NCBI RefSeq assembly: GCF_030646255.1 | Contig: NZ_JAUSNF010000015.1 | Coordinates: 1 to 36,516, forward strand | Origin: Candidatus Burarchaeum sp. | GTDB lineage: Archaea; Micrarchaeota; Micrarchaeia; Burarchaeales; Burarchaeaceae | Length of the DNA: 36,516 nt | Direction of reading: 5' to 3' | Shown: positions 3,158 through 36,516 of the stretch, piece by piece | Position numbering within the stretch: the first letter of the stretch is position 1 | Layout: the number at the start of each line of letters is the position of its first letter | Position numbers and translations under genes: made by a program | The notes under the pieces: generated by a model | What the model was told of the DNA's origin: nothing | The model's input: only the letters and a program-made list of their open reading frames with translations | The model's database searches: none

Positions 3158-3184
3158 TTAATTTTCCCTCCTCGCCACCACCAA

Positions 3185-4876: not shown

Positions 4877-4897
4877 GTGCAAATCTTTCAGGCGTGG

Positions 4898-4965: not shown

Positions 4966-5011
4966 AATGCGGTTGCATACGCTATCCAACTTTTTCATTG
5001 GGGGTGGGCGC

Positions 5012-6967
5012 ATGAAGGGACTTGCGAAAACTGGTTTTATCGGAATCTTGGTGGCAGTATTGCTTCTGTCAGCCACGGCAGTATATGCGCCGGGAGCGGC
5101 GCTATGCAATGATGGCAATGATAATGACGGCGACGGGTTGACGGACTATCCCACTGATCCTGGCTGCAGCAGCAGAAAGGACACGACTGAAACAGGAACA
5201 ATCGCGTGCGACAATAATGCGGATGACGATTCGGACGGCAAGACAGATTATAAACTCAACGGCTCGGGCGACCCCGGCTGCACGGGAGCGTCAGATACGA
5301 ACGAGCGCGGCACGTTGCTGTGCGACAACGGCGCGGATGACGCGGATGCGGACTCTTTGAGCGACTATCCGAACGACCTCGGCTGCACCGGCCCTTCGGA
5401 CAACATCGAGGTGAACGGCCAATGCGACGACCTTATGGACAATGACGGCGACACGCTTACGGACTACTCGAGCGACCCGGGCTGCGCCTCCTACTCGGAT
5501 GCAAGCGAACGCGGAACGGCGCAGTGCGATGACGGACTGGATAATGACGCTGACAACTGGGTCGATTACCCTGACGACCCCAGCTGCGCAAGCGCGACGG
5601 ACAATGATGAGTCCCCTGCAGACACGCCCGCAAGCCCGCCCCAGACAAGCCAAAAATACATCTACCTATATGCTGGCGAACCCGACATTGACGTGAATCC
5701 CGCAGACCCTGCGAATTTGGCAGTTTCAGGCATTGGGCCAACAGGGAGCACTACGCCAGTATTTTATACTCTTGACGGAGGCATCACATGGAATCGCAGC
5801 AAATCCAACGTGTATATGGGCGGTAGCGACCCTAACATAAACTATGATGCACATGGAAATCTTTATTATAGCACAATAGACACATTCTTTGATCCTAACG
5901 ACCACGAGGTAATAAGCGTATCAAAATCAGTCAATAAGGGCGCCAATTTCACATCAAAGACAGCGGCAATAAACAGGACCACAATATTCAGGATGCCTGA
6001 CGGGTCGAACAGGACAATGTGCCCGGATTCGAACCTGACAGTAGCGGACGTCGACTATCCCAAGCTCGGAGCCGACAGGTTCATCGGCTCTCCGCATGCA
6101 AGCAACGTCTACGTCATGGCAAAGGTCACATACGATATGAACAACAATAGCCAATGCGATGGCAATGAGCCGTTCATCACAAGCATCGTCCGCTCAGCGG
6201 ATGGCGGCGCGACCTGGAAGGACGGCCAGTCTATTTCCATCGGCGCCTTCATGGAGAATATTGGCGTGGGCCCGACAGGCAACGTTTATCTTGCCCTCGG
6301 CAGCAGCCCTGCGACGCCCAGCGATGCCCCGCCTCAGTATGGCACATACATCTGCAACAGTTCCTCTCCTTACAGCCCTAACAATGGCATCGCACTTTGG
6401 AAATCGACTGATGGCGGGGCGCATTTCGGCAACGGGACTTGCATCTACCCTGCAAACGCATCCATCCTTACGCGGGGCCCTGCCATGGTGGGCGTCGATC
6501 CCTCGAATGCGAACAACGTATATGTGATTTTCGATGCCTATCTGATACTAAACGGCAGCTATATCAGGGTTTACAGCATAAAGTCAACAGATGGCGGCGC
6601 AACGTGGAGTTCGCCAGTTCTTGTCGACGACAATGCCACAAGCGACAAGTCGAGGGCAAGGATAAGCGTATCCGGGAACGGCCGCGTGGATGCTGCCTGG
6701 TTTGACTACCGCAACAGCAATAGCACAGACCACAAGCGTTCTTCAGTGAACACAATGGACATCTATTATTCCTACAGCCTTGACGGCGGGAATACGTGGG
6801 CGGCGAACGTCCGGGCAAGCAACGTTACGGCGCGGTACGAGGGTGTCGGAAATGACTACATAGGCATAGTGTCTTCGGGCAAGAAGGCATACGTGTCGTA
6901 TGCGCAAAAAACCAACACATCTTCAAATAACGACTATGCGTACGTAAGTACGATACAGCACCCATAA
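5012..6967 (+). CDS. Secreted protein: five Cys/Asp-rich Ca-binding-type repeats plus Asp-box (BNR) propeller
   Basis: 651 residues. ATG 5012 is chosen because GGGGTGG stands just upstream and the protein then opens with a clean signal peptide (MKGLAKTGFIGILVAVLLLS, predicted cut after VYA); an upstream ATG at 4967 would hide it. Residues about 33-210 hold five repeats of about 35 residues built on C-x-DGxDNDxDGxxDYPxDPGC, with Asp/Asn spacing like EF-hand or thrombospondin type-3 calcium loops and two Cys per unit. Residues about 230-651 carry five to six Asp-box motifs (S/T-x-D-G-G-x-T-W: TLDGGITW, SADGGATW, STDGGATW, SLDGGNTW) that mark sialidase-fold β-propellers. The sialidase catalytic Arg triad and RIP motif are not recognisable, so enzymatic activity is not claimed. 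It is likely a calcium-stabilised surface adhesin or glycan-binding protein. No C-terminal anchor is seen. Confidence 0.8.
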   Translation: MKGLAKTGFIGILVAVLLLSATAVYAPGAALCNDGNDNDGDGLTDYPTDPGCSSRKDTTETGTIACDNNADDDSDGKTDYKLNGSGDPGCTGASDTNERGTLLCDNGADDADADSLSDYPNDLGCTGPSDNIEVNGQCDDLMDNDGDTLTDYSSDPGCASYSDASERGTAQCDDGLDNDADNWVDYPDDPSCASATDNDESPADTPASPPQTSQKYIYLYAGEPDIDVNPADPANLAVSGIGPTGSTTPVFYTLDGGITWNRSKSNVYMGGSDPNINYDAHGNLYYSTIDTFFDPNDHEVISVSKSVNKGANFTSKTAAINRTTIFRMPDGSNRTMCPDSNLTVADVDYPKLGADRFIGSPHASNVYVMAKVTYDMNNNSQCDGNEPFITSIVRSADGGATWKDGQSISIGAFMENIGVGPTGNVYLALGSSPATPSDAPPQYGTYICNSSSPYSPNNGIALWKSTDGGAHFGNGTCIYPANASILTRGPAMVGVDPSNANNVYVIFDAYLILNGSYIRVYSIKSTDGGATWSSPVLVDDNATSDKSRARISVSGNGRVDAAWFDYRNSNSTDHKRSSVNTMDIYYSYSLDGGNTWAANVRASNVTARYEGVGNDYIGIVSSGKKAYVSYAQKTNTSSNNDYAYVSTIQHP

Positions 6968-7075: not shown

Positions 7076-10018
7076 ATGGCTTCTGCCCACAGACTCGAGG
7101 TCCAGTACAAACAAGACCCGCGGCTGAAGTCGCGCACAGCACGCATCCGCTCGCTGGGCTTTCCCTCAGTGCAGGAAGTGCAGCTCATAGACGTCTATAC
7201 CATCTCGACCGCTGCAAAGGACTTCAGCCCAGCCGAGCTGCAGAAAATCGGGGAACAGCTCGTCAACCCCGTAGTTCAGGGCTTCACCGTGGATGCTGCG
7301 ACCAAGGGCGAGTTTGATTTTGCAATCGAGGTGGGCTTCCTGCCCGGCGTGACCGACAATGCGGGCAGCACGGCCAGGCAGACCATTGAGGACTTCTTCA
7401 AGATGCGCTTCCGCGAGGGCGAAGGCGTCCACACCTCGCAGCTCTATTTTGTCAAGGCCAAGCTCTCTGCGACAGAAATGCAAAAGCTTGCGTCAAAGCT
7501 CGCGAACCCGCTCGTCAACCGAGTGCACATAAAAACGCGGCAGGAGTACGGCGCGAAGGGCATGGATGTTGTGGTACTGCGTGTGCATTTGGATGAGCTG
7601 CTGGAAGCCGAGCCCGTTAACCTGGATATCGAAGATGCCGAGCTCGCGAAGCTGGGCAAGGAAGGCATTCTGGACAAGAAGATAGGCACAAGACGGGGGC
7701 CGCTTGCGCTCGACCTTCCGCAGCTGCATGCCATCAGGGAACATTTCAAGAAGCGCGGAAGGAAGCCGACAGACCTTGAGCTCGAGTCCCTTGCGCAGAC
7801 GTGGAGCGAGCACTGCAAGCACACGATATTTGCGTCTGCGATGGATGATGATGTGCCGCAGGGCCTTTACAAGACATACATACAGGGTGCCACTAACTGC
7901 ATACGCAAGCAAAGAGGAAAGGACGACCTCTGCGTGAGCGTGTTCAGCGACAATTCGGGCGCAATAGTTTTTGACAGCGAAAATCTGGTAACCCACAAAG
8001 TGGAAACGCACAACTCGCCCTCTGCACTCGACCCGTTCGGCGGCGCGCTCACTGGCATAGTGGGCGTGAACCGCGACACAATAGGCTTCGGCCTTGGCGC
8101 AAAGCCGTGCATTAATTACTATGGTTATTGCGTGGCAGACCCCGAGACTGAACCCAAGCTCTACAGGGGCAAGGGCAGGGCAAACCCGCTCCTTCCCCCG
8201 AGGCAGATACTCGACGGCGTTGTGCGCGGCGTTGCAGTGGGCGGCAACTGCTCAGGCATCCCGACACCGCAGGGCTGGTGCTACTTTGATGCTCGCTATG
8301 TTGGCAAGCCGCTGATTTTCGTGGGCACTGTTGGCGTGATGCCTCTTGAGAAAAACGGCAGGAAGCTCTATTTGAAAAAGGCGCAGCCCGGCGACCTCAT
8401 CGTGATGGTCGGCGGCCGCGTGGGCAAGGATGGCATACATGGTGCAACCTTCTCCTCAGAAGCTCTCGATTCCGGAAGCCCCGTAACCGCAGTTCAAATC
8501 GGGGACCCGATAACGCAGAAGAAATTGAGCGATGCGATTGTAAAGGAGGCGCGCGACCTCGGGCTCTACACGAGCATGACTGATAATGGCGCGGGCGGCC
8601 TTTCTTGCTCAGTAGCAGAAATGGCCAAAGAGAGCAATGGCTGCCATGTGCAGCTTGACAAAGTGCCGCTCAAATATCCTGGCATGGCACCGTGGGAGAT
8701 TTGGGTTTCAGAATCGCAGGAGCGCATGACACTCGCAGTCCCTCCCGCCAAGCTCGATGAATTCATGGAGCTCATGGGGCGGCGCGAGGTCGAGGCCACT
8801 GTGATTGGCAAGTTTACAAACTCAGGCAAGTGCGTGGCCGAATGGAAATGCAAGGCCGTTATGGATGTTGACCTGAAGTTCCTGCATGACGGGCTGCCGA
8901 AAAAACATCTCAAGTCAAGCTACTCGCAGAAGAAATTCCCAGAGCCTTCGCAGGCCTGCCCTTCGGACTTGAGCCCAACAATGCTTGACATGCTGAAGAG
9001 AAAGAACATCTGCTCAAAGGAATTCATAACAACGCAGTATGACTACGTCGTGCAGGGCGGGCACGTGCTTGGCCCGCTCCAGGGCAAGGGCCAGGTGCAG
9101 TCAATAGCCTCGCTTACAAAAGTCGTGCTCAGCTCAAGGAAAGGCGTGGGCCTGTCGCAGGGCACGTACCCGCTCTACTCTGATATCGACACTTACTGCA
9201 TGGCAGCCGCAGGAATTGACACGGCCATAAGAGGCCTCATAGCAATCGGCGTGCCGCTGGACAAGATTGCGCTTCTGGACAACTTCTGCTGGTGCTCTTC
9301 CGATGAGCCTGAAAGGCTCGGGCAGCTGAAGCGTGCGGCAAAGGCATGCTATGATTATGCAACTGCCTTCGGCACGCCCTTCATTTCAGGAAAGGACAGC
9401 ATGTTCAACGATTTTGTTGGCTTCGATGAGAAGGACAAGCGCGTGAAAATTTCAGTGCCTCCAACGCTGCTCATTTCCTCCATTGGCATTCATCCCGAAG
9501 CGGAAAAGGCGGTTTCAATGGATGCAAAATGCGAGGGCGATTTGATTTATGTGGTAGGTGAGACCCGCGAGGAGCTGGGCGGCTCGGAGTATTTTGCCTA
9601 TCTTGGCCATGTGGGCAACAGAGTGCCAAAGCTCGACGCGGCTGGTGCAAAGGCAAGGTATGCGAAAGTGGAAAAGGCAATAGCGGGCGAGCTCGTAGCA
9701 TCCGCCTATCCCGTCAACTACGGCGGGCTGGGCGTGGCGCTCGCAAAAGTCGCGGTTGCCGGTAGGTTAGGCATGAGTCTCACCATTCCACAGGCCATGC
9801 GCCCAGACTATTATCTTTTCTCGGAGTCTCAGGGCCGCTTTGTTGTCACTATCTGCCCTGCTAATGGGGAAAAGTTCGAGAAGATTCTGGGTGCTGATGC
9901 GAAGCTGCTGGGCACGGTGGGCGGCCAAAACTTTACGGTCAAGGCAGATAAAACTCTAGTCAATTTGCCCATGGCACAGCTTGAGGAAGCATACAAATCT
10001 CCGTTCAGAGGTTATTGA
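7076..10018 (+). CDS. purL: Phosphoribosylformylglycinamidine synthase, PurL with fused PurS-like N-terminus
   Basis: 980 residues. It catalyses the ATP-dependent amidation of FGAR to FGAM in de novo purine synthesis, using ammonia from PurQ. Residues about 1-170 look like two tandem PurS-type αβ modules (LEVQYKQDPRLKSRTARIRS; later SQLYFVKAKLSATEMQKLAS), followed by a linker domain and the PurL core. Core signatures are visible: TWSEHCKHTIF near residue 245, KVETHNSPSALDPFGGA near 315, DNGAGGLSCSVAEMA near 500 and SGKDSMFND near 780. Separate archaeal PurL proteins are about 700-750 residues with PurS encoded apart; here PurS appears built in, while PurQ remains a separate downstream gene. 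The PurL stop and purQ start are one base apart. Leaderless start at 7076. Confidence 0.93.
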   Translation: MASAHRLEVQYKQDPRLKSRTARIRSLGFPSVQEVQLIDVYTISTAAKDFSPAELQKIGEQLVNPVVQGFTVDAATKGEFDFAIEVGFLPGVTDNAGSTARQTIEDFFKMRFREGEGVHTSQLYFVKAKLSATEMQKLASKLANPLVNRVHIKTRQEYGAKGMDVVVLRVHLDELLEAEPVNLDIEDAELAKLGKEGILDKKIGTRRGPLALDLPQLHAIREHFKKRGRKPTDLELESLAQTWSEHCKHTIFASAMDDDVPQGLYKTYIQGATNCIRKQRGKDDLCVSVFSDNSGAIVFDSENLVTHKVETHNSPSALDPFGGALTGIVGVNRDTIGFGLGAKPCINYYGYCVADPETEPKLYRGKGRANPLLPPRQILDGVVRGVAVGGNCSGIPTPQGWCYFDARYVGKPLIFVGTVGVMPLEKNGRKLYLKKAQPGDLIVMVGGRVGKDGIHGATFSSEALDSGSPVTAVQIGDPITQKKLSDAIVKEARDLGLYTSMTDNGAGGLSCSVAEMAKESNGCHVQLDKVPLKYPGMAPWEIWVSESQERMTLAVPPAKLDEFMELMGRREVEATVIGKFTNSGKCVAEWKCKAVMDVDLKFLHDGLPKKHLKSSYSQKKFPEPSQACPSDLSPTMLDMLKRKNICSKEFITTQYDYVVQGGHVLGPLQGKGQVQSIASLTKVVLSSRKGVGLSQGTYPLYSDIDTYCMAAAGIDTAIRGLIAIGVPLDKIALLDNFCWCSSDEPERLGQLKRAAKACYDYATAFGTPFISGKDSMFNDFVGFDEKDKRVKISVPPTLLISSIGIHPEAEKAVSMDAKCEGDLIYVVGETREELGGSEYFAYLGHVGNRVPKLDAAGAKARYAKVEKAIAGELVASAYPVNYGGLGVALAKVAVAGRLGMSLTIPQAMRPDYYLFSESQGRFVVTICPANGEKFEKILGADAKLLGTVGGQNFTVKADKTLVNLPMAQLEEAYKSPFRGY

Positions 10019-10019
10019 G

Positions 10020-10895
10020 ATGAATGTTGCAAAGCGCGCACAACCGATTTCCGAGAAGGCGCTCATCATGAGCGGCTATGGCATAAACTCGGAGATGGAG
10101 ACGCAGGAGGCGCTGAGGCGCGCGGGCATGGCCTCTGAAATAGTGCACATAAATGATTTGATAGCCGGCAGGAAAAAGCTGTCCGCTTACCGCCTCCTCG
10201 TATTTCCAGGCGGCTTCTCGTACGGAGATGATACTGGCGCAGGCAATGCGTATGCCAATAGGGTGCGCAACAATCTGTGGGATGAGCTGCTCGAATTCCT
10301 TGACAACGACAACCTTGTGCTGGGCATATGCAATGGATTCCAGATATTGGCTAACTTAGGTCTTGTGCCTGCGTTCGGCAGAAAGTATGCGCGCGAAATC
10401 GCGCTCATGCCGAACAGGAGCGGTGTGCTCGAGTGCAGTTTTGTCACACTGAAGCCCGCTGTCAGCAATCACTGGACAAAAGGCATTGAACGTATATGCT
10501 GCCCCATAGCGCACGGCGAGGGCAACTTCCAATGCGCACCTGAGGTTCTGAAGCGCATCAAGGAGAAGAATATGATTTGCTTCAAGTATGTGCGGGAGGA
10601 TTTGAGCCCTGCGAAAGGAGAGTTTCCATTCAATCCGAATGGCGCGCTCGAGGACATCGCTGGCATAACTTCGGAAGATGGCAAGGTGCTGGGCCTCATG
10701 CCGCACCCTGAACGCGCAATGGAGTTCACGGGCCTGTATGATTGGCCGCTGCAAAAGGAACTGCTGAAGCGGGGCCTGAGCGAGGCGCCTGTGCGGCCTG
10801 GTCTGCCCGGGTGCCGTCCCGGCACGCTGCCTTCTGAGTCGCTGAACATGCAGTTCTTCAGGAATGTCGTCGGATATTTTGGCAAACGGGATTAG
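10020..10895 (+). CDS. purQ: Phosphoribosylformylglycinamidine synthase glutaminase subunit PurQ
   Basis: 291 residues from ATG 10020, immediately after the purL TGA. GAGG within the end of purL serves as binding site; an in-frame start 39 bases earlier is disfavoured because it overlaps purL and lengthens the family N-terminus. It is a class I glutamine amidotransferase: nucleophile Cys in LGICNGFQILANLG (near residue 108), catalytic His-Glu in MPHPERAME (near residues 235-240), and the PurQ marker VFPGGFSYGDDTGAG. It supplies ammonia to PurL. The protein is longer than bacterial PurQ (about 227 residues), mostly through a mid-domain and a C-terminal tail containing LPGCRPGTLPSE. Together with purL it makes a complete FGAM synthase. 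Confidence 0.93.
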   Translation: MNVAKRAQPISEKALIMSGYGINSEMETQEALRRAGMASEIVHINDLIAGRKKLSAYRLLVFPGGFSYGDDTGAGNAYANRVRNNLWDELLEFLDNDNLVLGICNGFQILANLGLVPAFGRKYAREIALMPNRSGVLECSFVTLKPAVSNHWTKGIERICCPIAHGEGNFQCAPEVLKRIKEKNMICFKYVREDLSPAKGEFPFNPNGALEDIAGITSEDGKVLGLMPHPERAMEFTGLYDWPLQKELLKRGLSEAPVRPGLPGCRPGTLPSESLNMQFFRNVVGYFGKRD

Positions 10896-25387: not shown

Positions 25388-25969
25388 ATGAACTTCAAGG
25401 TGCTTTTCACTGCAGTTTGCATTTTATCGCTATTGCCTCTAGTGCATGCAGACATAGGGCCCAAATCACAAGGCTGCTATGAGTTCATAAATCTGAACGA
25501 ATTTTCAGAAACCAGTTTTATGATTGGTTCATATTACGCTGGGGATAACGTATCTCTGCTACCTGCTGTAGCCGGTACTTATTCTGGAGGCCAAATCTGC
25601 GAATATTCTGCTAGTTTCAGAAGAGGTGAAAAATTATATGCCGGAGATGCTTGCATCTCTGAAGAATTATCTTCGGTGTCTCGAATTGGGGCTCTGCCAA
25701 AAACTGCCCCAAACTGCACTAAATGGGCCGTTTCCGATTGGATTCCTGTGAAAGGTTCCTACCTCGTTTCCTTAAAAATAGAAAAAATAGATTTTGATAC
25801 TCACCACATGACCATCTCTGCAGTCAATGAAAAATTCGAAATTTCTGATTTCTTGCGCCTCGTATTCGGAGACCCCATTTTTTTCGTGCTCGTAGCGGGC
25901 GTCATCTTATTTTTCGCATTCGTACTATTCCTAATCTTCTACTACATTCGTAAAAAATGGGGCCACTGA
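25388..25969 (+). CDS. Unknown protein with signal peptide and C-terminal membrane anchor, overlapping tRNA-Pro
   Basis: 193 residues from ATG 25388, with AGGTGAGG just upstream. N-terminal signal peptide (MNFKVLFTAVCILSLLPLVHA), an extracellular domain of about 125 residues with four Cys (C30, C62, C79, C100 approximately), then a hydrophobic helix (VLVAGVILFFAFVLFLIFYY) and a short basic tail RKKWGH. This is type I membrane topology. I do not recognise the domain. The gene is visibly more A/T-rich than its neighbours. Its last four codons and stop lie inside the opposite-strand tRNA-Pro: the final Lys-Lys codons are the tRNA's T6 terminator, and Trp-Gly-His-stop comes from the acceptor and T-arm. 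This may be recent or acquired sequence. Confidence 0.7.
   Translation: MNFKVLFTAVCILSLLPLVHADIGPKSQGCYEFINLNEFSETSFMIGSYYAGDNVSLLPAVAGTYSGGQICEYSASFRRGEKLYAGDACISEELSSVSRIGALPKTAPNCTKWAVSDWIPVKGSYLVSLKIEKIDFDTHHMTISAVNEKFEISDFLRLVFGDPIFFVLVAGVILFFAFVLFLIFYYIRKKWGH
25952..25957 (-). terminator. T6 terminator of tRNA-Pro
   Basis: Six T directly after the discriminator base on the minus strand. On the other strand the same bases are the two Lys codons at the end of the membrane-anchored protein. Confidence 0.55.
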
Positions 25970-26573: not shown

Positions 26574-27845
26574 ATGGACTGGTTGCCTCTAGCTGGGATT
26601 GCACTTCTCACAACCGCGTTTGTAATCAGCATCGCCTACATGATAGCCAAGGGCTTCCACCTGCCCCAGCTCGAAGGCTGGGCGAAGTTGGAATACCATG
26701 AGCTGCTTGTTTCAGCCCTTCTTCTCGGCGCCATTGTTTTTGGCATAGGCATGATTGACGTGGTGGCTGGCCAGCTCGGGCAGGGCAAGGACATGACGTT
26801 CCAGGTTTCAGCAGACCCTGCAAATGCCGACAGCGCGCCCGCAGAGCCTCTGGATCCTTCAGATCCTCTTTCAGATCCCGTATATGTCTCCAAAGCAACG
26901 TGCACGTTTGGCGGCGGTTCAACAAGCGCATTTGCGCTCGAGCGCACCTATGCATTCGACGAATGCTACCTAGAGAAAAGCGCAGACCACATGATTTACG
27001 TCTACAGGCAGCTGAGCAAGGCCAACCGCTACATCTCGAAGATGACCACCTTTTCCTATAACATTGCAATTCCGCTCTATCTTTTCTCTGCCAGCGTGTA
27101 CAAAGCTCCGCATGCAGGCCTCAGCTACCTGCCCGGCCTCATAGGCGGGGGCATGGATGCGCTTGCCTCCAGCATCTTCATCCAGGTCTCGCAGAAGCTG
27201 CTGCTAGATTTCTTCCATGCAGTCTCCTTCTCATGGATCCTTCCCTTCGGCCTTGCCCTGCGATCTTTCACATTCTCACGGAAGCTCGGTGCCACGCTTA
27301 TCGCGATTGCAATAGGCACCTACGTGGTCTACCCGCTCACTATTGCTTTCGCGGCAGGCGTTTACGATGCCCCCGGAATGGTCAAGGACATCAGCATAAA
27401 CCTCCCGAACGAGCCGCCGAACCTTCAGGACACTGCGATATGCAGCCCGTTCGTGCAGAACTTCATGTGGGTCGGCTCGATAACCTGGTGGTTTGTCTGG
27501 TTCACGCCGGAGTGCACGGGCACGACTTTCCTGGGCTATTTGGAGTGCATGCTCGCAGTCTATCCCGAAGCGCAGTCAATTTTCAACGGCATCAATGCAG
27601 TATTCCTGCTGGCCTACGCGCCTACACTCTGGGACTATGCATTCAAGGTCCATCCTGAAGCACTCTACAATCTGCTTGCAGACCCCACCAACCCTCAAGC
27701 CATACTGCCCGCAGTCTCTCACAATGCCATGATTACTGCGGTGCTTTCAGTATTCAGCATAATCCTTACAGTCTCCGCAACCCGCTCGCTCTCAATGCAG
27801 CTTGGCGGCGACGTGCAGTTCTACGGAATTTACAAGCTGATATGA
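26574..27845 (+). CDS. Polytopic membrane protein, paralogue A of six (VirB6/TrbL-like array)
   Basis: 423 residues from ATG 26574 (MDWLPLAGIALLTTAFVISI), with GGGGAGCGGTG upstream. Family blocks: N-terminal membrane hairpin with IAYMIAKG and 'LEGWAKLEYHELLVSALLLG' (about 15-50); an external loop with Cys; central block ILPFGLALRSFTFSRKLGAT + LIAIAIGTYVVYPLTIAF (about 222-258); an external Cys-containing loop; and a C-terminal helix ending RSLSMQLGGDVQFYGIYKLI. There are about six to seven membrane segments. The same blocks recur in the next five genes, so this is one ancient tandem family. The topology and the central Arg-rich block resemble VirB6/TrbL channel proteins of type IV secretion; this is structural analogy, not a proven match. 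Nothing enzymatic is visible. Confidence 0.75.
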   Translation: MDWLPLAGIALLTTAFVISIAYMIAKGFHLPQLEGWAKLEYHELLVSALLLGAIVFGIGMIDVVAGQLGQGKDMTFQVSADPANADSAPAEPLDPSDPLSDPVYVSKATCTFGGGSTSAFALERTYAFDECYLEKSADHMIYVYRQLSKANRYISKMTTFSYNIAIPLYLFSASVYKAPHAGLSYLPGLIGGGMDALASSIFIQVSQKLLLDFFHAVSFSWILPFGLALRSFTFSRKLGATLIAIAIGTYVVYPLTIAFAAGVYDAPGMVKDISINLPNEPPNLQDTAICSPFVQNFMWVGSITWWFVWFTPECTGTTFLGYLECMLAVYPEAQSIFNGINAVFLLAYAPTLWDYAFKVHPEALYNLLADPTNPQAILPAVSHNAMITAVLSVFSIILTVSATRSLSMQLGGDVQFYGIYKLI

Positions 27846-27854
27846 GGCATCAAA

Positions 27855-28763
27855 ATGAAGTTGCTTGCAAAATCACTCGCATTCCTGCTCCTGCTTACGG
27901 GAATTTCCAGTGCAGCCTCGGCCTGCAGCGTCAGCATTACAAGCGAAGCTTCGCTCATCATACTCCTGGCGCTCCTATCCGGCCTCATAGTTGCGCTTGC
28001 CTACATGGGCTCGCAGGTGTTCCAAAAATTCGAGTGGGAAATATGGGCAAAGAATACGGGCGTGCGGGTCCTGGTTGCGCTCGCGCTGGTTTTCGGCGTG
28101 AACATGGTGATTCTTGCAGGCTGCGCGGCATCTGATGCGCTGGTGGGCAAGGACATGTTCGATGCCTCGAACAGCTATCTGGGCAATCTCGTTTACTCTC
28201 GCGGCTTCCCGCTAATCTACACCTTAACCGAGGCGAGCCTCCAGAACCAGCTCGAGGCAATTGACTTCAAGTTCACCTCAAGTCCCTTCTCAGGCGGTTC
28301 GGGCATTGCGGCGCATGCGGGCGAGAAGACAAAGGCCAACGCGCAGGATGCTGTGGTGAACATGCTTATGCCCCTCATGGCAAGCCTTTACGCGCAGCAG
28401 CTGCTCTTGCAAGCAATACAAACTGTGATTGTGCCCGTCTTCCTGCCCTTCGCATTCGTGCTCCGCGTCTTCTCGCAGACCCGCACAGTGGGCGACTACC
28501 TGATAGCAATCTGCCTCGGCCTTGCAGTAGTTCTTCCGCTCACATACGTTATGAACCTCGTGATAGTCGGCGGCATGGACATGGCAAACATCCTCACGCC
28601 CTCAATGGCCGCAGACCCCGACCTCAAGCTCGCATCAGTGACTTCGCTCATCCCTCAGGCCATTTTCCTGCCCAACCTCACAATCGTAGTCACTGTCAGC
28701 TTCATAATGAGTTTCTCAAAGCTCCTCTCGCGGGGCTTTGAGGTGGAGGCGCCCAATGCGTAA
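27855..28763 (+). CDS. Polytopic membrane protein, paralogue B of six
   Basis: 302 residues from ATG 27855, nine bases after paralogue A. It begins with a signal-peptide-like segment (MKLLAKSLAFLLLLTGISSA) followed by SACSVS, which might be a lipoprotein or ordinary cleavage site. Shared blocks: LIVALAYMGSQVFQKFEWEI for the N-terminal hairpin, VFLPFAFVLRVFSQTRTVGD + YLIAICLGLAVVLPLTYVM (about 192-235) and the C-terminal VTVSFIMSFSKLLSRGFEVE. It is the shortest and most diverged of the set: the FTR-GG core became QTR-GD and the C-terminal GG-D/E became RGFE. The external loop includes SPFSGGSGIAAHAGEKTKAN. It overlaps the next gene by eight bases. Confidence 0.72.
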   Translation: MKLLAKSLAFLLLLTGISSAASACSVSITSEASLIILLALLSGLIVALAYMGSQVFQKFEWEIWAKNTGVRVLVALALVFGVNMVILAGCAASDALVGKDMFDASNSYLGNLVYSRGFPLIYTLTEASLQNQLEAIDFKFTSSPFSGGSGIAAHAGEKTKANAQDAVVNMLMPLMASLYAQQLLLQAIQTVIVPVFLPFAFVLRVFSQTRTVGDYLIAICLGLAVVLPLTYVMNLVIVGGMDMANILTPSMAADPDLKLASVTSLIPQAIFLPNLTIVVTVSFIMSFSKLLSRGFEVEAPNA

Positions 28764-30813
28764 ATATTTCCCAGCCGCACTCGCCCTGCTCGCCATCTCG
28801 CTCCTATTGATAGGTTGCACGGGCATACCTAATCCAACCCCTCCAGCGCAATCCGCAGAAAAAGGCATTGTTGATTCTTGGTTCACAGAAAACTGGGCAG
28901 CCACCTCACTACTCATAGTCCTCATAATCTTCTTCATCCTCGGAATACTGTACATGCTTTCCCAGTCTTTCAGCAACCGGGAGCTGCATGCGTGGGTCGT
29001 CACAGAGTTCTTCCAGAATCTAATGTCCATCGTGATAATAGTAATTCTCGTCGTACTTTTCGTCTCGGTCAGCCAGCTCTCAGAAGCACTCGTCAACCTC
29101 TCTGACCCTGCAAGCCCGACGCCTCCTTGCTCAGTGAGCGAATGCCATTTCGGGCTTGCGAGCAACTATCTCGAACAGCTAATCCTGATAATAACCTGGC
29201 CGCAGAACATGTGTCTGGCAAACATCGACACGAGCCCGACAAGCCCGTGCATGACCGATCCCGTTACTGCGCGGGTGATAGAAGTGGACTTCGAGGACCC
29301 GCCCGGTTCCAACAACTTCGTTCGCAAGTGCCCGGCAGACATTGGCAGTTCGCCGCCTCCTGTTTGCCTGAAGGACGCAACAGGCCAGAATATCGTGCCC
29401 ATGGGCCTTGCAGACTACTCCACCATGCGCGCAATTTCCCGGATGTCCCTGTCAACCTACAAGATAAGCCTGGTGGCAGTCGACCTCCTGCCCTTCCTCT
29501 TCTCCGGCTACTCCATGCGGCCCTATGCCGGCTTCTCGATTTACGCCGACAGGCACATGCTTATCGCAGACTATTCCCTGCGCCTGGCCGCATCGCTCAA
29601 TGCCCAGAAGCTGTTCCTCCAGTATGTGCAAACTGCGCTCGTGCCCCTCCTCCTAATTGCCGGCGTACTCCTGCGCGCCATCTTCTTCACGCGCAAGCTG
29701 GGAGGACTCATGATTGCCATTGCCATCGCGCTCTTCACAGTCTATCCCCTCACCTACTTCGTCTTCCAGTACACCTTCCCGGTTGCGATGGAGGTGGAAA
29801 GCACCAGCGTTGGAGGAATAGACCCGCTGGCTTCCTGCGTCCCGGCGGAGCTGTATGTTGTTTATCCTAAGGATACAACCAGCATGTGCACGGCTGCGTG
29901 TGACGTTAATCCCAACACAGACCCTTCCGCACCTTCAGATCCGTCTAAAAACGCACCGAGTTTTGCAAAGACTGCCTGTAAAACTGAATGCACCGCCTAC
30001 TGCACAGACCAGTATGAAGTTCTCGATAATGCCTGTTACGAAAGGTGCGCCACGGGCTCGCCCAACTATATTTTCCTCTGCTCGATAACCTACTCCGATG
30101 ACAACGGGGACGGCCTCAAAGGGTACGAGTGCGACGATGCTGCTGAAGCAGCGGGTGGAATTCTGAGTACTGTTGCATACAGGACTGCGGCCAAGGCGTA
30201 TATGGGAATCCATCATCCTGGCATAGCAACCTGCAATGATTTGGTTATTGAAACCGCAGATCCCTATGCTGCAGTGGGCGAGTGCTCGATCACAAACGCG
30301 GCAGGCGCGCAGATAACCTGCCCCTCTCGCGCGCTTGCGGACTGCCGCGTGACTTACAGGGCACTGACAAAGAAAGCCGATGGCACTTATGAACGGAACC
30401 CTGAACCTGACGGTCCTTTGGTCTATGCTTTCCCAGACTATTATGATGAAGTCCTGCCCCAGCTGCCAAATGAGTGCAAGGCGAGTCCAGACATCGTGGA
30501 GGCGTGCAAGCTATGCGCAGCGAACATCGGCGGAGTCACCACGCCTGCTGAGGCAGAGCGGCTCACAATTTTGCCCGACCCCCAGATGCAGGCCGACTGC
30601 ACCAAGAGCGATATACTGGAGTCAGGCACAATACCTCCCCTAGACTCAGACAAATTCACGGTGAGCGGCGACATTGAGGCAGCAGCCAAGCTGCTCATAG
30701 CCGGCATAATCCTGCCAATATTCAGCTTCATAATCACAATAACATTCGCAAAGTGCCTCTCGCCCCTGCTGGGCGGGGACTTTGATATAGCCGGCATAAT
30801 GAGGATGATATGA
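28756..30813 (+). CDS. Polytopic membrane lipoprotein-like protein, paralogue C of six, with large Cys-rich external domain
   Basis: 685 residues from ATG 28756, preceded by GAGGTGGAGG; it overlaps paralogue B by eight bases. N-terminus MRKYFPAALALLAISLLLIG ends in a lipobox (LLIGC). Shared blocks: ILYMLSQSFSNRELHAWVVT for the hairpin, IAGVLLRAIFFTRKLGGLMI + AIAIALFTVYPLTYFVF (about 298-335) and the C-terminal ITFAKCLSPLLGGDFDIAGI. Between the central block and the last helix, about 300 residues (340-640) form a Cys-rich external insertion with more than twenty Cys, including CTAACD, KTACKTECTAYC, NACYERC and CKLC. This insertion is absent from the other five paralogues. It is therefore a strong candidate for a surface-exposed, disulfide-bonded binding domain. 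Confidence 0.75.
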   Translation: MRKYFPAALALLAISLLLIGCTGIPNPTPPAQSAEKGIVDSWFTENWAATSLLIVLIIFFILGILYMLSQSFSNRELHAWVVTEFFQNLMSIVIIVILVVLFVSVSQLSEALVNLSDPASPTPPCSVSECHFGLASNYLEQLILIITWPQNMCLANIDTSPTSPCMTDPVTARVIEVDFEDPPGSNNFVRKCPADIGSSPPPVCLKDATGQNIVPMGLADYSTMRAISRMSLSTYKISLVAVDLLPFLFSGYSMRPYAGFSIYADRHMLIADYSLRLAASLNAQKLFLQYVQTALVPLLLIAGVLLRAIFFTRKLGGLMIAIAIALFTVYPLTYFVFQYTFPVAMEVESTSVGGIDPLASCVPAELYVVYPKDTTSMCTAACDVNPNTDPSAPSDPSKNAPSFAKTACKTECTAYCTDQYEVLDNACYERCATGSPNYIFLCSITYSDDNGDGLKGYECDDAAEAAGGILSTVAYRTAAKAYMGIHHPGIATCNDLVIETADPYAAVGECSITNAAGAQITCPSRALADCRVTYRALTKKADGTYERNPEPDGPLVYAFPDYYDEVLPQLPNECKASPDIVEACKLCAANIGGVTTPAEAERLTILPDPQMQADCTKSDILESGTIPPLDSDKFTVSGDIEAAAKLLIAGIILPIFSFIITITFAKCLSPLLGGDFDIAGIMRMI

Positions 30814-30814
30814 G

Positions 30815-31993
30815 ATGAACTTCAGAAAACTCGCAGTCATTGCGCCTGTGCTGGTCCTGCTAGTGCTGGCTGGCTGCCTCGGCTTCGTACAGCGCGACGC
30901 TGGAACTGGCGAGTGCATAGGCACATGCCCATTCGGCACGCACCAGCCCTCCCCAACCACCTGCGCCTGCGTGCCTGACCAATGGTCTGGCGACTGGGTC
31001 GTACTTTCAGCCCTTCTTCTCCTCACCCTAATCTTCCTAATTTCAATATTCTACATGCTGGCAACTGCGCTTGAGATGCCTTATCTGCAGATGCAAATCA
31101 AGGATGAATATGCTCAGGCAATAGTTTCGCTAATTTTCCTGGTAGCCCTGGCATCTATGCTTTGGAGCATCAACAACGTGCTGCTGCCCGGGCTTGCAGG
31201 AACCTTCGGGCTTACTCTTACAGACGTACCTGGCGGTTCGCACATGGAGGCCGCATTCGATCCTATCAGCGGCGTAATGGATCCCATGGCATTTGCAAAA
31301 GAATATACTCAGGACATCACCGACGCGCTTAGCCATTTCACTGCAGACCTGGAGGGCATAGCTCTCGAAGTGGGCGCGGCGAGCTCAGTCTCAACCTATT
31401 GCCAGATTCTCGGCGGCGTGCTGGGCTTCTCTATAGTCCCATGCAGTTACCTCAACTCAACCATGGGCACGCTGGGCCTGCTCCTCAACGCACTCTACGC
31501 CGCCTCCATTGCAATGTGGGCGCAGGCAATGCTGCTCAAGCTGGCCGGCACTTTCATGATCCTGCTCCTGCCTCTCGGAGTCCTATTGCGGAGCCTGCGC
31601 TTCACGCGCTCAGCAGGCGGCGCACTCATAGCAATCGCAGTCGGCTTCTACCTAATCTATCCCTTCATGGTCATAGCCGACTATTCTTTCATAAAATCTG
31701 ACGTGTTCATGCCCGATTCCGCAACTGCAAAATACGGTTATACGCACGTGTATGACACGGCAATCAAAGAGCTTTCAGTCAATCACGATCTCGGCGCATG
31801 CACGGGTGACGGGGACTACATCTCCATGCTTACCAACCGCGAGGCGTTCATCGAGCCCATGGCCTACTGGATAATCATAGTTTCCATACTCCTGCCAGTC
31901 ATGAACCTCCTGGTCACGCTGACATTCATACGATGGTTTGCCTCTGCGATAGGGAGCGAGATTGAAGTGGGGCAGCTTGCGAGGGTGGCATGA
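30815..31993 (+). CDS. Polytopic membrane protein with lipobox, paralogue D of six
   Basis: 392 residues from ATG 30815, directly after the TGA of paralogue C. Begins MNFRKLAVIAPVLVLLVLAG with a classical lipobox LAGC, then a short Cys-rich external stretch (ECIGTCPFG, TTCACVPDQW) before the first family helix. Shared blocks: FLISIFYMLATALEMPYLQM and KDEYAQAIVSL; LLPLGVLLRSLRFTRSAGGA + LIAIAVGFYLIYPFMVIA (about 250-287); and the C-terminal VTLTFIRWFASAIGSEIEVG. It has six or seven membrane segments. The leader is almost the same as that of the last gene of the array (MNFRLLAPAFLV...IAGC), so those two share their N-terminal targeting region. Confidence 0.75.
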   Translation: MNFRKLAVIAPVLVLLVLAGCLGFVQRDAGTGECIGTCPFGTHQPSPTTCACVPDQWSGDWVVLSALLLLTLIFLISIFYMLATALEMPYLQMQIKDEYAQAIVSLIFLVALASMLWSINNVLLPGLAGTFGLTLTDVPGGSHMEAAFDPISGVMDPMAFAKEYTQDITDALSHFTADLEGIALEVGAASSVSTYCQILGGVLGFSIVPCSYLNSTMGTLGLLLNALYAASIAMWAQAMLLKLAGTFMILLLPLGVLLRSLRFTRSAGGALIAIAVGFYLIYPFMVIADYSFIKSDVFMPDSATAKYGYTHVYDTAIKELSVNHDLGACTGDGDYISMLTNREAFIEPMAYWIIIVSILLPVMNLLVTLTFIRWFASAIGSEIEVGQLARVA

Positions 31994-32967
31994 TGGCGTA
32001 TTGTACCCTGGGCATCACTGGCGTGTCGGGCCTCATCGGACTAAGCGTCATGCTCTCCATATTCGTAATCTCGCTAATCTTCATGCTGGGCAGGGCCATG
32101 CGCTCTTCGACAATTGAGGCGTGGGTGAAGCTCGAGCTCTACCAGGTGCTGGCCACCATACTTTTCGTATCTGGCTCGATGTTTTTCATCGGCATATTCT
32201 GCAGCGTAGATGTCACTTTCTTCTCCGATTACATAAATCTCGGCGTCGTAGACCCTGCCCTAATAGACCCCGCAATGTTCCCGGTCAATGCCAACATGTT
32301 CGATGCCAGCAGCGACTATCTTGTGTGGCTGCAGAACAATATTTATGGCTCAAGCACGCAACCGGGCTTCTACTTGCAAGTGAAAAGCGTCCTCATGAAG
32401 TGGGAGGTGCAGGCCTCGAAGAGCGAATTCAACTGCCCCGGGGAATTCTGCCTCATGATGCCTAACGGCTGGAGCATAGACCCTGGCACAGGGTTCTACA
32501 CAAAACTGAATGCTGGCTATGCCGCACTGCAGGCACTTATAATTTCGATGCTCTCAGTCTCCTCCTTGCGTTTCATGCTTGAATATGCCTCGGCAGGCGC
32601 GCTCCTGATACTCTTCCCAATAGGCGCCTTCTTCAGGTCAATACCCTACATGCGCGGCTTCGGCGGCGCGCTCATGGCCCTTGCGCTCACGCTCTATCTT
32701 GCCCTTCCCTTCATCCTATTTGTAAATGCGCTCGTTGCCTATCCGGTGATTACCGGAACTCCGAACCTATTCGCGCCGCCATCGACTTGTTCGTCGGACG
32801 GCTCTGGCGCATGCATCGTGCCCATAGCCCAGCAGGCTGCCAGCGCCTCATTTGTCACCGTTTTCCTGCCTGCCCTTGACTTTATATTGCTGGCAGCAAT
32901 AGGAAGAGACTTAGCCCGCCTCTTCGGCAGCGAGCTTGACCTTACAGGATTATCGCAGTTGGTATGA
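31990..32967 (+). CDS. Polytopic membrane protein, paralogue E of six
   Basis: 325 residues; the ATG at 31990 overlaps the TGA of paralogue D (ATGA), and a second ATG follows at once. No lipobox; the first helix starts near residue 15. Shared blocks: FVISLIFMLGRAMRSSTIEA with WVKLELYQVLATILF; ILFPIGAFFRSIPYMRGFGG + ALMALALTLYLALPFILFVN (about 208-247), where FTR is replaced by YMR; and the C-terminal IGRDLARLFGSELDLTGLSQ. Cys in the loops (SVDV region, NCPGEFC, STCSSDGSGAC) suggest disulfides in external loops. The next gene begins 11 bases after the stop. Confidence 0.75.
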   Translation: MMAYCTLGITGVSGLIGLSVMLSIFVISLIFMLGRAMRSSTIEAWVKLELYQVLATILFVSGSMFFIGIFCSVDVTFFSDYINLGVVDPALIDPAMFPVNANMFDASSDYLVWLQNNIYGSSTQPGFYLQVKSVLMKWEVQASKSEFNCPGEFCLMMPNGWSIDPGTGFYTKLNAGYAALQALIISMLSVSSLRFMLEYASAGALLILFPIGAFFRSIPYMRGFGGALMALALTLYLALPFILFVNALVAYPVITGTPNLFAPPSTCSSDGSGACIVPIAQQAASASFVTVFLPALDFILLAAIGRDLARLFGSELDLTGLSQLV

Positions 32968-32977
32968 TGGTGTAAAA

Positions 32978-34048
32978 ATGGTTCCGGAACTCGATAAATT
33001 GACAGACGTCTGGACCAACCCCGTGCAAGGGCTCGGAGCCTCGGGCATGCAGTTTGCCCTCACAATAGTCCTGACGATAATTTTCATCATCGCAATTCTT
33101 TACATGCTTTCAGCCGCGCTGCGCAACGAGCGGCTGAAGCGCTGGCTAGCCGGCGAGCTCATGCAGGCCTTTGCCTCAGCACTCATGATTATAGGCCTAG
33201 TGGTTTTCGCACTCTTCATTACGCAGGTATTCTATGGCTTCTATTATAACCCGGTTTCTGGGGGCTTCCCCGGCATTTCCTGCAATTCTGCCGACTCCAG
33301 CTGGTCTGCAACGGGTTTTGGAATAGTGGATCCGGCAAATCCCACCTTCATAATCAAAAGTCCGCTCGACTACTTCAGGTGCAAGTTCACCACCATAGAC
33401 ATGCAGTTCAGCAATCTCTACGCCGATACTGTTAGCCTGGACCTGCACGTGGAGCGCGCGGAATGGTCATGCTGGATTTTCTTCGGCACTGAAATCATGT
33501 GCGGCTGGGACCTGCACCCTCTGGCGCAGAGCCTTCATGCGCTAGCATACAAGATTGTGCAGTATAGGATAGGCGTGAACGCTGCGCTCGTGCTGGCTGA
33601 TTACGTTCAGCAATGGTTCCTGCCAATATTCCTGCCAATAGGCATCCTGCTGCGCGCCATACCCTTCACGCGGGGCGCCGGCGGCCTGATAATCGCAACA
33701 GTGCTCGGCTTCTACTTCATCTTCCCGATAGTCTTCATGTTCGGCGACCTGCTGCTGAGCAGCCAGCTCGAAAAGCCAGACCTGAGCTTCATCGACCCGA
33801 ATGCCAATGAGTGCGTCTACTCAGACCTCTCGGGTGCAATGGGCGTATATGTTGCCGACGCTGCCATAGCTGCTCAGGCCCAGCTCACAATCTCAACCAT
33901 CCGCTCTCTCCTTACCGCGCTCATAATGGAAATAGTTCTCGCGCCCCTGCTGGCGCTGGCCGCAACAGTGATGTTTATACGTGCCTTCTCACCCATATTC
34001 GGCTCGGACAGCTCGATGGTAATGTATGGAATTTCGAAGATGATTTGA
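32978..34048 (+). CDS. Polytopic membrane protein, paralogue F of six
   Basis: 356 residues from ATG 32978, chosen over an upstream in-frame start because GATGGTG lies immediately before it and after the stop of paralogue E. Shared blocks: FIIAILYMLSAALRNERLKR with WLAGELMQAFASALM; IFLPIGILLRAIPFTRGAGG + LIIATVLGFYFIFPIVFMFG (about 215-256), the best consensus copy of the central motif; and the C-terminal FIRAFSPIFGSDSSMVMYGI. The external segment between hairpin and core has Cys in FRCKF, SCWIFFG and IMCGWD. It is the last polytopic member; a lipoprotein gene follows nine bases later. Confidence 0.75.
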   Translation: MVPELDKLTDVWTNPVQGLGASGMQFALTIVLTIIFIIAILYMLSAALRNERLKRWLAGELMQAFASALMIIGLVVFALFITQVFYGFYYNPVSGGFPGISCNSADSSWSATGFGIVDPANPTFIIKSPLDYFRCKFTTIDMQFSNLYADTVSLDLHVERAEWSCWIFFGTEIMCGWDLHPLAQSLHALAYKIVQYRIGVNAALVLADYVQQWFLPIFLPIGILLRAIPFTRGAGGLIIATVLGFYFIFPIVFMFGDLLLSSQLEKPDLSFIDPNANECVYSDLSGAMGVYVADAAIAAQAQLTISTIRSLLTALIMEIVLAPLLALAATVMFIRAFSPIFGSDSSMVMYGISKMI

Positions 34049-34057
34049 GGTGATGCG

Positions 34058-36516
34058 TTGAACTTCCGCTTGCTTGCCCCCGCATTCCTCGTGCTTGCCC
34101 TGTTCATAGCAGGCTGCCCCTCGCTCCAGCCGGTTACTTTTGCAAACACAGATGCCACTGACAGCTACATCGCGCCCTCGGACTGCGCCTCGTGCGCCTG
34201 CCTCGTGTGCCAGCGGCCCGAACTGACAGATCCCGCCGCAATCGATGACATCTCCGCGCCCACGGGCATAAGCAAGGACTATTTGGCAAAGAGCGGCGGC
34301 GGGCTCGCAGGCAGCCGCTGCTGGTTCCAGACCTGCGGTGCAAAGCTCGAGCAGCAGATAAAGGAAGACCGCAGCCTCTATCAGGTGCCGTTCAAGATAA
34401 GTGCGGGGCAGGACGTCGGACCTATTAACGGATACATACAGGGGCTTTCAAGCTGGCAGTTCAGGCAGGCTGCGAAATACTGCCCGATGACTGACAAGTG
34501 GTGCGGCTTTGCGGCGCCGGGCACCAAGGACAGGTGGCAGAATGTCCTGCGCTCCTACGGCTTTGACGCCTTCCTCCAGATGCAGTGCAACTCTCCCGAC
34601 CCTCCCCGGCTATGCAATTACGGCACAGGCTCGGATGATTTTGTAACCTGGAGCGAGGATCCTGTAAAATCCGCAAGCCCTACAATACCGCAGTTCGAGT
34701 GGATGTCTGACAGCACGTACGTTACCTCTCCAGACGACAATGCCTATGTAGCGGACCATTCGGCCCAGGGATATCCTTTTCCCATGTTTGACAATGGCGT
34801 CGACAGCGCCTTTGCAGGTAAAGTCCTTCCCAAAACCTCAGACCTCCTCTGCCTCTTCCAAGGCCCCTATGACATCATGACTGCCTCAGGTTCCAAATAC
34901 TACGGCGCGCCTTCGCAGCTATTCTGCGCCTCTGGAAACTGCAACAAGGTACGGACGTATGAAAGCTACTGTCGTAAGGACGAGGGTGCGCCAGGCCTAG
35001 ACTATTCTGTAACAGACCCGGACAACCCACAAGACTACCTGCCGATTGACAGCACAGATTGCAGGTGCAGGACCGTGCGGTTCTATAATGAGGAAAATGC
35101 ACTCAATTATCCATCTGCACTTATTGCAGCCGGAGGAGCAATAGGCTTTACCAACGGGCATCTTCCTGATGGCACTGCAAAAGACATTCTGCCGGGCGGC
35201 AGCCAGCAATGGTGCCGTGCCTATCCTGCTAATCTTGCGAACCCTCAACTGACCGGCCTTTTCTATCCTGATTCGGGCATAATCCAGGATGGCGACAAAA
35301 TATTCATCTGGAATTCGCTGGGCATGGCCTCAGGCACCGAGGCGACGGATTATATGAATCCAAATACGGACACTATTGACGAACTGGTCAACGCCGATAA
35401 CTTGCCCGTATTCAAGAACTGCGCAACGGCCGCAAAGCCCATCAAAGGAGAATGCGCAGCCTACTACGAGGATTCCACTGCCCATACGATTTCCATTGTA
35501 GGCAGCTCCGCATATCTGGACGATTTAACTAATCCGGCCACTTACACCGGCAAATTCAGGTACTGCATAGATTGGGCGATAACTGAGGGGGGAGAATGCG
35601 TCATGACTGAGGATGAACGGCTCGACCTTCTGGAATATGGCTTGTGCGAGGGCTGCTTCCCAACAATGGACCTGGTGCCTATAGGCGGGACCTACTGGAG
35701 CGCAAACCTGGGTGATTTCGGCACAAACCTGGTCGAGGACATAAAAGGCGAAGAAATCTCTCCACCGGAATATGCACATAGTGGATTCCTGCAGCTCAGC
35801 ATATTGCCCGTCGTCGACACCCGTGTTTGGGCCACTGATGCCCAGGAAAGTATAGCAAAACCAACCATGGTAGATCAAGAATGGTATTCTTTCTCCGGAC
35901 GACTCTGGCGCGAAGGGGCTACGCCCGTAGTAATTGTTTTGGGCCGCAACCGCGCCGATATGGCCCCATTGATAAAACAAACAGTATTGTCCGATCCCGC
36001 TGATCCTAACAGCACCTACGGCAACTGTCCGCCATTCGTGGATCCCGACGATGGGATTACAAAACAATCCTGTCTGGTGGGCGTAGAGGACAGTTGGAAA
36101 ATAGGCACCGACTGGAACATAGGCGACCCCGTAAATCCCTGGGCATCGACCAAGGGCAATGACCCAATTCCAGCAGGCTACGGGGGCAGTGTTGACTTAT
36201 TGGTCGCCGACGTAACGCTGACGACCTGCGTAAGCGATGCGCAATTCGGCGACGTTCTTCAGGCCCTCATACGAAGGGCCAAAGACGTCCAGTCCATCCA
36301 TGCGGACAAACCCCTCGGCTGGCTTCTCTACCTGCGGTTCCTTGACAGCGGCTGCGACTATGCGACAGACAAAAGCATCGGCGCCATAGACCTGCTCGCG
36401 AATGCAGGCTACATCGGCGTGATAGCAACTTTTGCCGACCCGCCAGCCGGCGACTATTCTGCGATAAAAACTCCCTACGACGTCGCCACATTCAACACGC
36501 TCCTTCACACGCTTGC
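34058..36516 (+). CDS. Giant Cys-rich surface lipoprotein, N-terminal part (runs off right edge)
   Basis: An open frame of 819 complete codons continues past the window end. The start is TTG 34058: GAGGTGATG precedes it, no ATG or GTG in frame lies between the last stop and this codon, and the protein then begins with MNFRLLAPAFLVLALFIAGC, a clean lipobox leader like that of paralogue D. The mature part is hydrophilic and Cys-rich, with early CASCACLVCQ and later NCNK, DCRCR and GLCEGCF, plus many Asp, Gly, Tyr and Trp. No repeats, catalytic motif or second membrane helix appear within the visible portion. It belongs to the same operon as the six polytopic proteins and is probably their external partner, by analogy with lipoproteins of secretion machines (inference). 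Known domain assignment was not possible. Confidence 0.78.
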   Translation, partial: MNFRLLAPAFLVLALFIAGCPSLQPVTFANTDATDSYIAPSDCASCACLVCQRPELTDPAAIDDISAPTGISKDYLAKSGGGLAGSRCWFQTCGAKLEQQIKEDRSLYQVPFKISAGQDVGPINGYIQGLSSWQFRQAAKYCPMTDKWCGFAAPGTKDRWQNVLRSYGFDAFLQMQCNSPDPPRLCNYGTGSDDFVTWSEDPVKSASPTIPQFEWMSDSTYVTSPDDNAYVADHSAQGYPFPMFDNGVDSAFAGKVLPKTSDLLCLFQGPYDIMTASGSKYYGAPSQLFCASGNCNKVRTYESYCRKDEGAPGLDYSVTDPDNPQDYLPIDSTDCRCRTVRFYNEENALNYPSALIAAGGAIGFTNGHLPDGTAKDILPGGSQQWCRAYPANLANPQLTGLFYPDSGIIQDGDKIFIWNSLGMASGTEATDYMNPNTDTIDELVNADNLPVFKNCATAAKPIKGECAAYYEDSTAHTISIVGSSAYLDDLTNPATYTGKFRYCIDWAITEGGECVMTEDERLDLLEYGLCEGCFPTMDLVPIGGTYWSANLGDFGTNLVEDIKGEEISPPEYAHSGFLQLSILPVVDTRVWATDAQESIAKPTMVDQEWYSFSGRLWREGATPVVIVLGRNRADMAPLIKQTVLSDPADPNSTYGNCPPFVDPDDGITKQSCLVGVEDSWKIGTDWNIGDPVNPWASTKGNDPIPAGYGGSVDLLVADVTLTTCVSDAQFGDVLQALIRRAKDVQSIHADKPLGWLLYLRFLDSGCDYATDKSIGAIDLLANAGYIGVIATFADPPAGDYSAIKTPYDVATFNTLLHTL

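Follow-up and report, generated by a model that had tools for sequence, protein, structure and literature searches.

A fixed cassette of six paralogous membrane proteins in Micrarchaeota, candidate hub of a type IV secretion-like machine

The stretch of DNA analysed here (36,516 nucleotides, hereafter the window) is the entire contig NZ_JAUSNF010000015.1 (G000:C17) of a Candidatus Burarchaeum sp. genome of 1.21 Mb, which consists of 61 contigs and is 84% complete. At 26574-34048 it carries six consecutive plus-strand genes that overlap or nearly abut (spacing of -8 to +10 bases), as a preliminary description, made from the sequence alone, had reported (Table 1). That description read them as tandem, divergent copies of one polytopic membrane family and likened them, by inference, to VirB6, a membrane component of type IV secretion systems. 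The operon does not end at 34048, as a lipoprotein gene starts nine bases further on.

Table 1. The six-gene cassette and its flanking genes in the window
Feature	Coordinates	Strand	Length (residues)	Remarks and basis
Putative subunit 1 (position 1) of the six-gene VirB6/CedA-like cassette	26574..27845	+	423	BLASTP within the set, profile, position-1 clade of the tree
Putative subunit 2	27855..28763	+	302	Signal-peptide-like N terminus; most compact copy; BLASTP, profile, position-2 clade
Putative subunit 3	28756..30813	+	685	Lipobox-like N terminus; BLASTP, profile, position-3 clade
Putative subunit 4	30815..31993	+	392	Lipobox-like N terminus, Cys-rich N-terminal segment; BLASTP, profile, position 4
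Putative subunit 5	31990..32967	+	325	BLASTP, profile, position-5 clade
Putative subunit 6	32978..34048	+	356	BLASTP, profile, AlphaFold2 model
Giant Cys-rich lipoprotein	34058..36514	+	819 up to the contig end	TTG start, lipobox-like LFIAGC
Secreted protein upstream of the cassette	25388..25969	+	193	One C-terminal membrane helix; no family match; membership uncertain

The six genes encode mutually homologous membrane proteins with five predicted helices. BLASTP detected every pair within the set (best expectation value, E, per pair of about 1e-15 to 1e-4), and a single profile built from the six recovered the whole set at E 1e-143 to 1e-76, so that the proposed paralogy is real. Seven residues are invariant across the copies, including the two arginines and the glycine of a central LRxxxxTRxxG turn and the proline of the next helix. 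Of the three blocks that had been described as common to all copies, this central turn is indeed conserved, whereas the C-terminal GG[D/E] occurs in copies 1 and 3 only, being replaced by GS[E/D] in copies 4-6, with neither in copy 2. The external loops had likewise been called Cys-rich throughout; strong richness is found mainly in copies 3 and 4, which have 26 and 8 cysteines against 3-6 in the others, and copy 3 has a big Cys-rich insert between helices 4 and 5. Among 294 members of the family, however, nearly all cysteines are predicted to be extracellular (1894, compared with 198 in membrane segments and 30 in cytoplasmic loops). In both length and sequence the extracellular loops vary greatly from copy to copy.

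The predicted topology comprises an outside N terminus, about five membrane helices, a large non-cytoplasmic loop and a cytoplasmic C terminus. The same 294 proteins show a positive-inside pattern, lysine and arginine together amounting to 11.1 per 100 residues in the turn of the N-terminal hairpin and 10.4 in the C-terminal tail, whereas the two large loops have 4.8 and 6.1; the central turn reaches 23.4, a value that is in part built into the search motif. Subunit 6 was modelled with AlphaFold2 (71 rows) at a predicted local distance difference test score (pLDDT) of 82.9 and a predicted template modelling score (pTM) of 0.78. Scans of the six proteins against Pfam, NCBIfam and PADLOC gave no credible match, and together with a PDB profile search they assigned the set to no known transporter family. 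With the homology among the six confirmed as well, the tandem-machine reading withstood both of the challenges set for it beforehand. A hit of copy 3 to the NCBIfam model GerXB (25 bits, against a cut-off of 600) was taken as a hydrophobic chance match and rejected.

The set is conserved as a unit. In each of 13 complete cassettes (the window's and 12 of relatives) there are exactly six genes, and when a protein is compared by phmmer with those of another cassette, its top hit occupies the same position 71-98% of the time, where chance would give 17%. A tree of 108 proteins bearing seven labels (the six positions and the solo members introduced below) required 8 label changes, the minimum being 6 and the shuffled mean 71.8; its internal support is modest, and the joining of win_p6 with L180_p6 was flagged as a long-branch join. 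The gene order was then read in 81 loci, that is 80 named loci from one scan of GTDB contigs plus the window. The exact order 1-2-3-4-5-6 on one strand is present in 56, and inspection of the remaining 25 revealed contig ends, genes of the expected position in gaps, narrow mis-scoring between positions 4 and 5 (three loci) and one split gene; in two of these 25 (L117 and L127) the first gene had not been called. An order other than 1-6 was seen in none of the 81. By these sequence comparisons the six positions are ancient orthologous lineages and the set is a fixed cassette, of which a second example lies in the window's own genome, where contig C24 carries the end of position 3 followed by 4, 5 and 6.

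This constancy bears on an explanation in which the six proteins can replace one another as alternative forms of a single homo-oligomeric VirB6-like channel, used for instance in surface variation, and are not joined in one complex. The strong differences in length and sequence between the extracellular loops would suit such a role, as would the homopentameric state of the VirB6 homologues of R388 and Dot/Icm (PMC12857230) and the presence of only one member in the solo loci. Interchangeable copies would, however, be expected to suffer loss, shuffling or conversion, yet all six positions and their order have been kept across the phylum, and the explanation is considered unlikely.

The connection to secretion comes from gene neighbourhoods in relatives. 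In Candidatus Fermentimicrarchaeum limneticum and its relatives (L069, L070, L075), one or more pilin genes are followed by the six-gene cassette, then by genes for two proteins of 265-277 residues with two N-terminal helices, and then by the gene for an ATPase of 508-513 residues; L071 agrees with them downstream of the cassette and L073 on the pilin side. The pilin of L073 scores over the Pfam cut-offs of T4SS_pilin and TrbC/VirB2, and the ATPase flanking the cassette over those of DUF87, AAA_10 and P-loop_TraG. The same order is found in G043 (L180), with an extra membrane-protein gene between pilin and cassette. In the solo loci L181, L182, L183, L186 and L189, a single family member stands after the pilin gene and before the genes for a membrane-anchored protein, here called the N-domain protein, and the ATPase. 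The solo members match the six-position profile at an hhalign E of 1e-44, and the L181 pilin scores 25.3 bits with TrbC, slightly below the cut-off of 27.9. The VirB6 analogy is thus backed by position, a solo member or a whole cassette having a VirB2-type pilin gene on one side and that of a VirB4/CedB-like ATPase on the other. Solo loci (L181-L186, L189) coexist with six-gene cassettes in G007, G032 and G048 and stand alone in family f19, where each of four genomes has a single family member; in L182 and L189 a further protein of about 750 residues is encoded downstream, which in L182 is a P-loop ATPase by inspection.

The same partners recur at the level of whole genomes. Sixty relatives were examined. 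Of the 51 that bear the family, all have the N-domain protein, 50 the ATPase and 49 the pilin, while in the nine genomes without the family none of the three was found. The corresponding hypergeometric p values (7e-10 for the ATPase, 7e-11 for the N-domain protein and 4e-9 for the pilin) overstate the independence of the cases because the genomes are related. In an hhalign comparison the N-domain protein aligned weakly with the split VirB4 N-domain that Bacillota plasmids encode (E 0.0017, prob 15), and on account of this weakness its possible VirB3/VirB4N identity is offered as a lead only.

A VirB4-like ATPase had been reported as absent from the window, and this is correct for the window itself; the window's genome nevertheless encodes one on another contig, C14 (L172), at 8591-10165, with the N-domain protein at 7730-8545. 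Among NCBIfam models it scores best with CedD (6e-22) and CedB (8e-20), both below their curated cut-offs; VirB4 and HerA rank lower. After the ATPase, L172:10205-13540 encodes a two-helix protein with CxxC pairs, a protein of 248 residues and a two-helix protein of at least 707 residues. These companions of the motor genes are conserved, with equivalents in L173-L179; the first is small, the second has about 250 residues, a coiled coil and a winged-helix-like end, and the third about 860 residues and two membrane helices. Elsewhere (L187:2680-5829, in G006:C37) a VirB4/CedB-like ATPase is split beside Walker B by an in-frame insert of more than 500 residues with intein-like ends and LAGLIDADG-like motifs.

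The window's genome is that of a Micrarchaeota archaeon, and nearly all its relatives in the GTDB collection carry this label. Within the phylum the family is present in 263 of 301 genomes and in 88 of the 96 that are near-complete; remote members may exist elsewhere because the scans rely on sequence patterns. The cassettes are set among housekeeping genes, such as those for leucyl-tRNA synthetase and other tRNA synthetases, FtsZ and purine genes. A large neighbour of many cassettes, at first a candidate VirB4, is leucyl-tRNA synthetase by inspection. In some Micrarchaeum-type genomes (L088, L092, L114), genes for an FtsZ-like protein and a DUF2070 membrane protein come after position 6.

Machinery of a conjugative or other mobile element, parked in the chromosome, would also bring VirB2, VirB4 and a single VirB6-like protein together, and the layout of the solo loci does recall conjugation modules. 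Such an origin is judged very improbable in view of the housekeeping surroundings, the near-universal presence in the phylum and the near absence of a VirD4-type coupling protein, which scored over its cut-off in only 2-3 of the 60 genomes, with short partial matches, while 5 control genomes pass the cut-off. Viral contigs searched with the position-3 profile and plasmids searched with a solo member yielded no relative. Two giant open reading frames of 4596 and 3271 residues (L205, at G059:C15:89226, and L206, at G016:C6:8809) contain a short VirD4-like P-loop patch and recall the SPEARE giants of nanohaloarchaea.

The lipoprotein gene behind the cassette leads to another possibility, namely that the six proteins form a separate envelope complex, an adhesin scaffold or a lipoprotein platform, that is merely co-inherited with a type IV secretion system. 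The preliminary description had suggested looking for an ATPase to the right; because the window is a whole contig, this flank was read in sister genomes, where the gene after that of the lipoprotein lies on the opposite strand, so that no ATPase follows directly. The window's lipoprotein has homologues at L043 and L045 in sister genomes, the L045 protein having 1118 residues and 43% identity to it; the similarity is strong for G001 and G002, both sister genomes, and weak for other members. The lipoprotein family directly follows position 6 in 22 of the named loci. The larger family has a conserved C-terminal domain, the model of which (13 sequences, pLDDT 72, pTM 0.73) resembles the TIM barrels of clan-A-type glycosidases (Foldseek E 7e-7, prob 1.00, template modelling score about 0.4). 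The alignment of the lipoprotein family has no invariant Glu column, and for this reason the modelled barrel is suspected to be sugar-binding or inactive and not an enzyme.

The frequent presence of a giant lipoprotein after the six genes would fit an envelope complex of this kind, as would the distance of most cassettes from motor genes and the lack of a fold match to VirB6. Against it, the solo, Fermentimicrarchaeum-type and G043-type loci put family members between pilin and ATPase genes, and the genomes that lack the family also lack the ATPase and the N-domain protein; a separate complex therefore seems improbable.

The interpretation favoured here, and held to be probable, is that six specialised paralogues of one VirB6/CedA-like protein together make up the membrane hub of a type IV secretion-like machine of Micrarchaeota. 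This hub would be a hetero-oligomer of six different subunits that acts as a channel or an assembly platform. Each subunit would have its N terminus outside the cell. A hairpin of two helices would come first, then a large extracellular loop, a pair of helices linked on the cytoplasmic side by the short LRxxPxTRxxGG turn, another extracellular loop that is Cys-rich and more variable, the fifth helix and a tail in the cytoplasm. The HerA/CedB-like ATPase, with the N-domain protein as its membrane-anchored partner, would dock on the cytoplasmic face, the central turns lying on the ATPase side, and the hub would pass VirB2-type pilins and/or substrate outward, while the side turned to the partner cell would consist of the extracellular domains, with diversified and probably disulphide-rich loops, together with the co-transcribed lipoprotein. 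Many genomes have two or three cassettes but only one close ATPase homologue (G001 and G026, for example), and several alternative cassettes may share one motor. The machine presumably moves DNA or protein between cells, both DNA exchange and protein delivery being conceivable; substrate, direction and stoichiometry, including a ring with one copy of each subunit, are inferred. A bolder version, in which each cassette forms an obligate hetero-hexameric ring matching a six-fold ATPase, and several rings with their own extracellular domains and lipoprotein serve as interchangeable heads on one motor, is put forward as a doubtful extension.

A possible relation between the family and the pilins emerged from the alignment of the pilin profile to the N-terminal hairpin (hhalign E 1.2e-5, prob 81; unrelated pairs E 0.1-0.7), and such a relationship has been described for CedA1 and CedA (PMC9905601). 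Several results weigh against a secretion hub. A wider selection of pilins weakens the hairpin match (E 1e-4, prob 58), and the pilin profile search found no pilin in the genome of the window (84% complete), although its congener G001 has some. The motor genes lie apart from the cassette in the window's genome and in most of the loci seen. The search against the VirB6/TrbL family gave no match over the cut-off: the Pfam model (PF04610) passes it in none of the 60 genomes and is not among the families listed for 70 members, so that sequence homology to bacterial VirB6 was not borne out. The hhalign comparison with three Bacillota VirB6 candidates, which made a very shallow profile, gave a prob of 0.3; the PDB profile search with the family returned nothing significant; and Foldseek found no PDB match to the subunit 6 model at E <= 0.001, long membrane helices being a weak case for that program. 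Membership in VirB6 proper is not claimed, as the TrbL model, profile comparison and fold search do not support it. In pNOB8 no archaeal VirB6 candidate was recognisable by family, and NF041016, tried as a Ced model, is ArnR.

As for the remaining genes of the window, the secreted protein encoded upstream of subunit 1 is not among the recurrent cassette neighbours. On the minus strand at 1902-4882, four adjacent genes encode small secreted proteins with pilin-like N termini (e.g. AQSSVEVIIILTG), possibly minor archaeal type IV pilins, and on the plus strand at 4967-6967 lies the gene for a secreted protein of 666 residues, in which Asp- and Cys-rich repeats (CDNGxDxDxDGxxDYPxDPGC) precede BNR/Asp-box repeats.

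Many of the small archaea that make up the Micrarchaeota are thought to be partner-dependent, and how they act on a partner has hardly been explained. If true, a type IV secretion-like machine that nearly all of them inherit with the chromosome would be a direct candidate for such action and could explain an exchange of DNA or protein with neighbouring cells, and a hub of six paralogues would document the evolution of a secretion hub from a homomeric to a heteromeric state. The six-gene cassette is not mentioned in the open-access full-text literature searched, a coverage outside which most subscription journals fall.

Among known systems, the type IV secretion-like machine of Patescibacteria is likewise near-universal in an ultrasmall, often epibiotic lineage (PMC12102498), with a bacterial VirB4 of the MPF_FATA type and no six-paralogue VirB6 cassette described. 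The SPEARE giants of nanohaloarchaea are DPANN surface giants tied to VirB4/TraG-like ATPases (PMC10266531), for which a six-gene membrane cassette is not described either. VirB6/TrbL proteins proper (R388 TrwI, Agrobacterium tumefaciens VirB6) share with the Micrarchaeota proteins about 4-6 membrane helices (five in one published VirB6 model), a big non-cytoplasmic loop and a site beside pilin and VirB4 genes; they differ in that no sequence or fold match is detectable and that the known VirB6 hubs are homopentameric (PMC12857230).

The Ced system of Sulfolobales (CedA, CedE, CedA1, CedB, CedD) and the Ted system of Thermoproteales are minimal archaeal sets of this kind that also combine a two-helix pilin, a polytopic VirB6-like protein and a HerA/VirB4-like ATPase, and it is to CedD and CedB that the Micrarchaeota ATPase scores best. 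In contrast to these systems, which belong to another phylum and have one or two such proteins, Micrarchaeota have six ordered paralogues, several cassettes per genome and a separate membrane-anchored N-domain protein, CedA and TedA having been compared by description. In Saccharolobus, the VirB6-like paralogues CedA and CedE differ in what they do in the import and export of DNA, and no coupling protein is listed for the Ced system (PMC11868833). The vir type IV secretion system of Rickettsiales (virB6a-e) differs in having a VirB8-B10 apparatus and five copies instead of six, copies that match the TrbL/VirB6 domain models whereas those of Micrarchaeota do not. It is nonetheless similar in its tandem, very divergent VirB6 paralogues with large variable extensions, which are vertically kept, Rickettsia retaining all five divergent copies (PMC2653234), and the Micrarchaeota cassette may be regarded as an independent archaeal parallel to this five-copy VirB6 puzzle.

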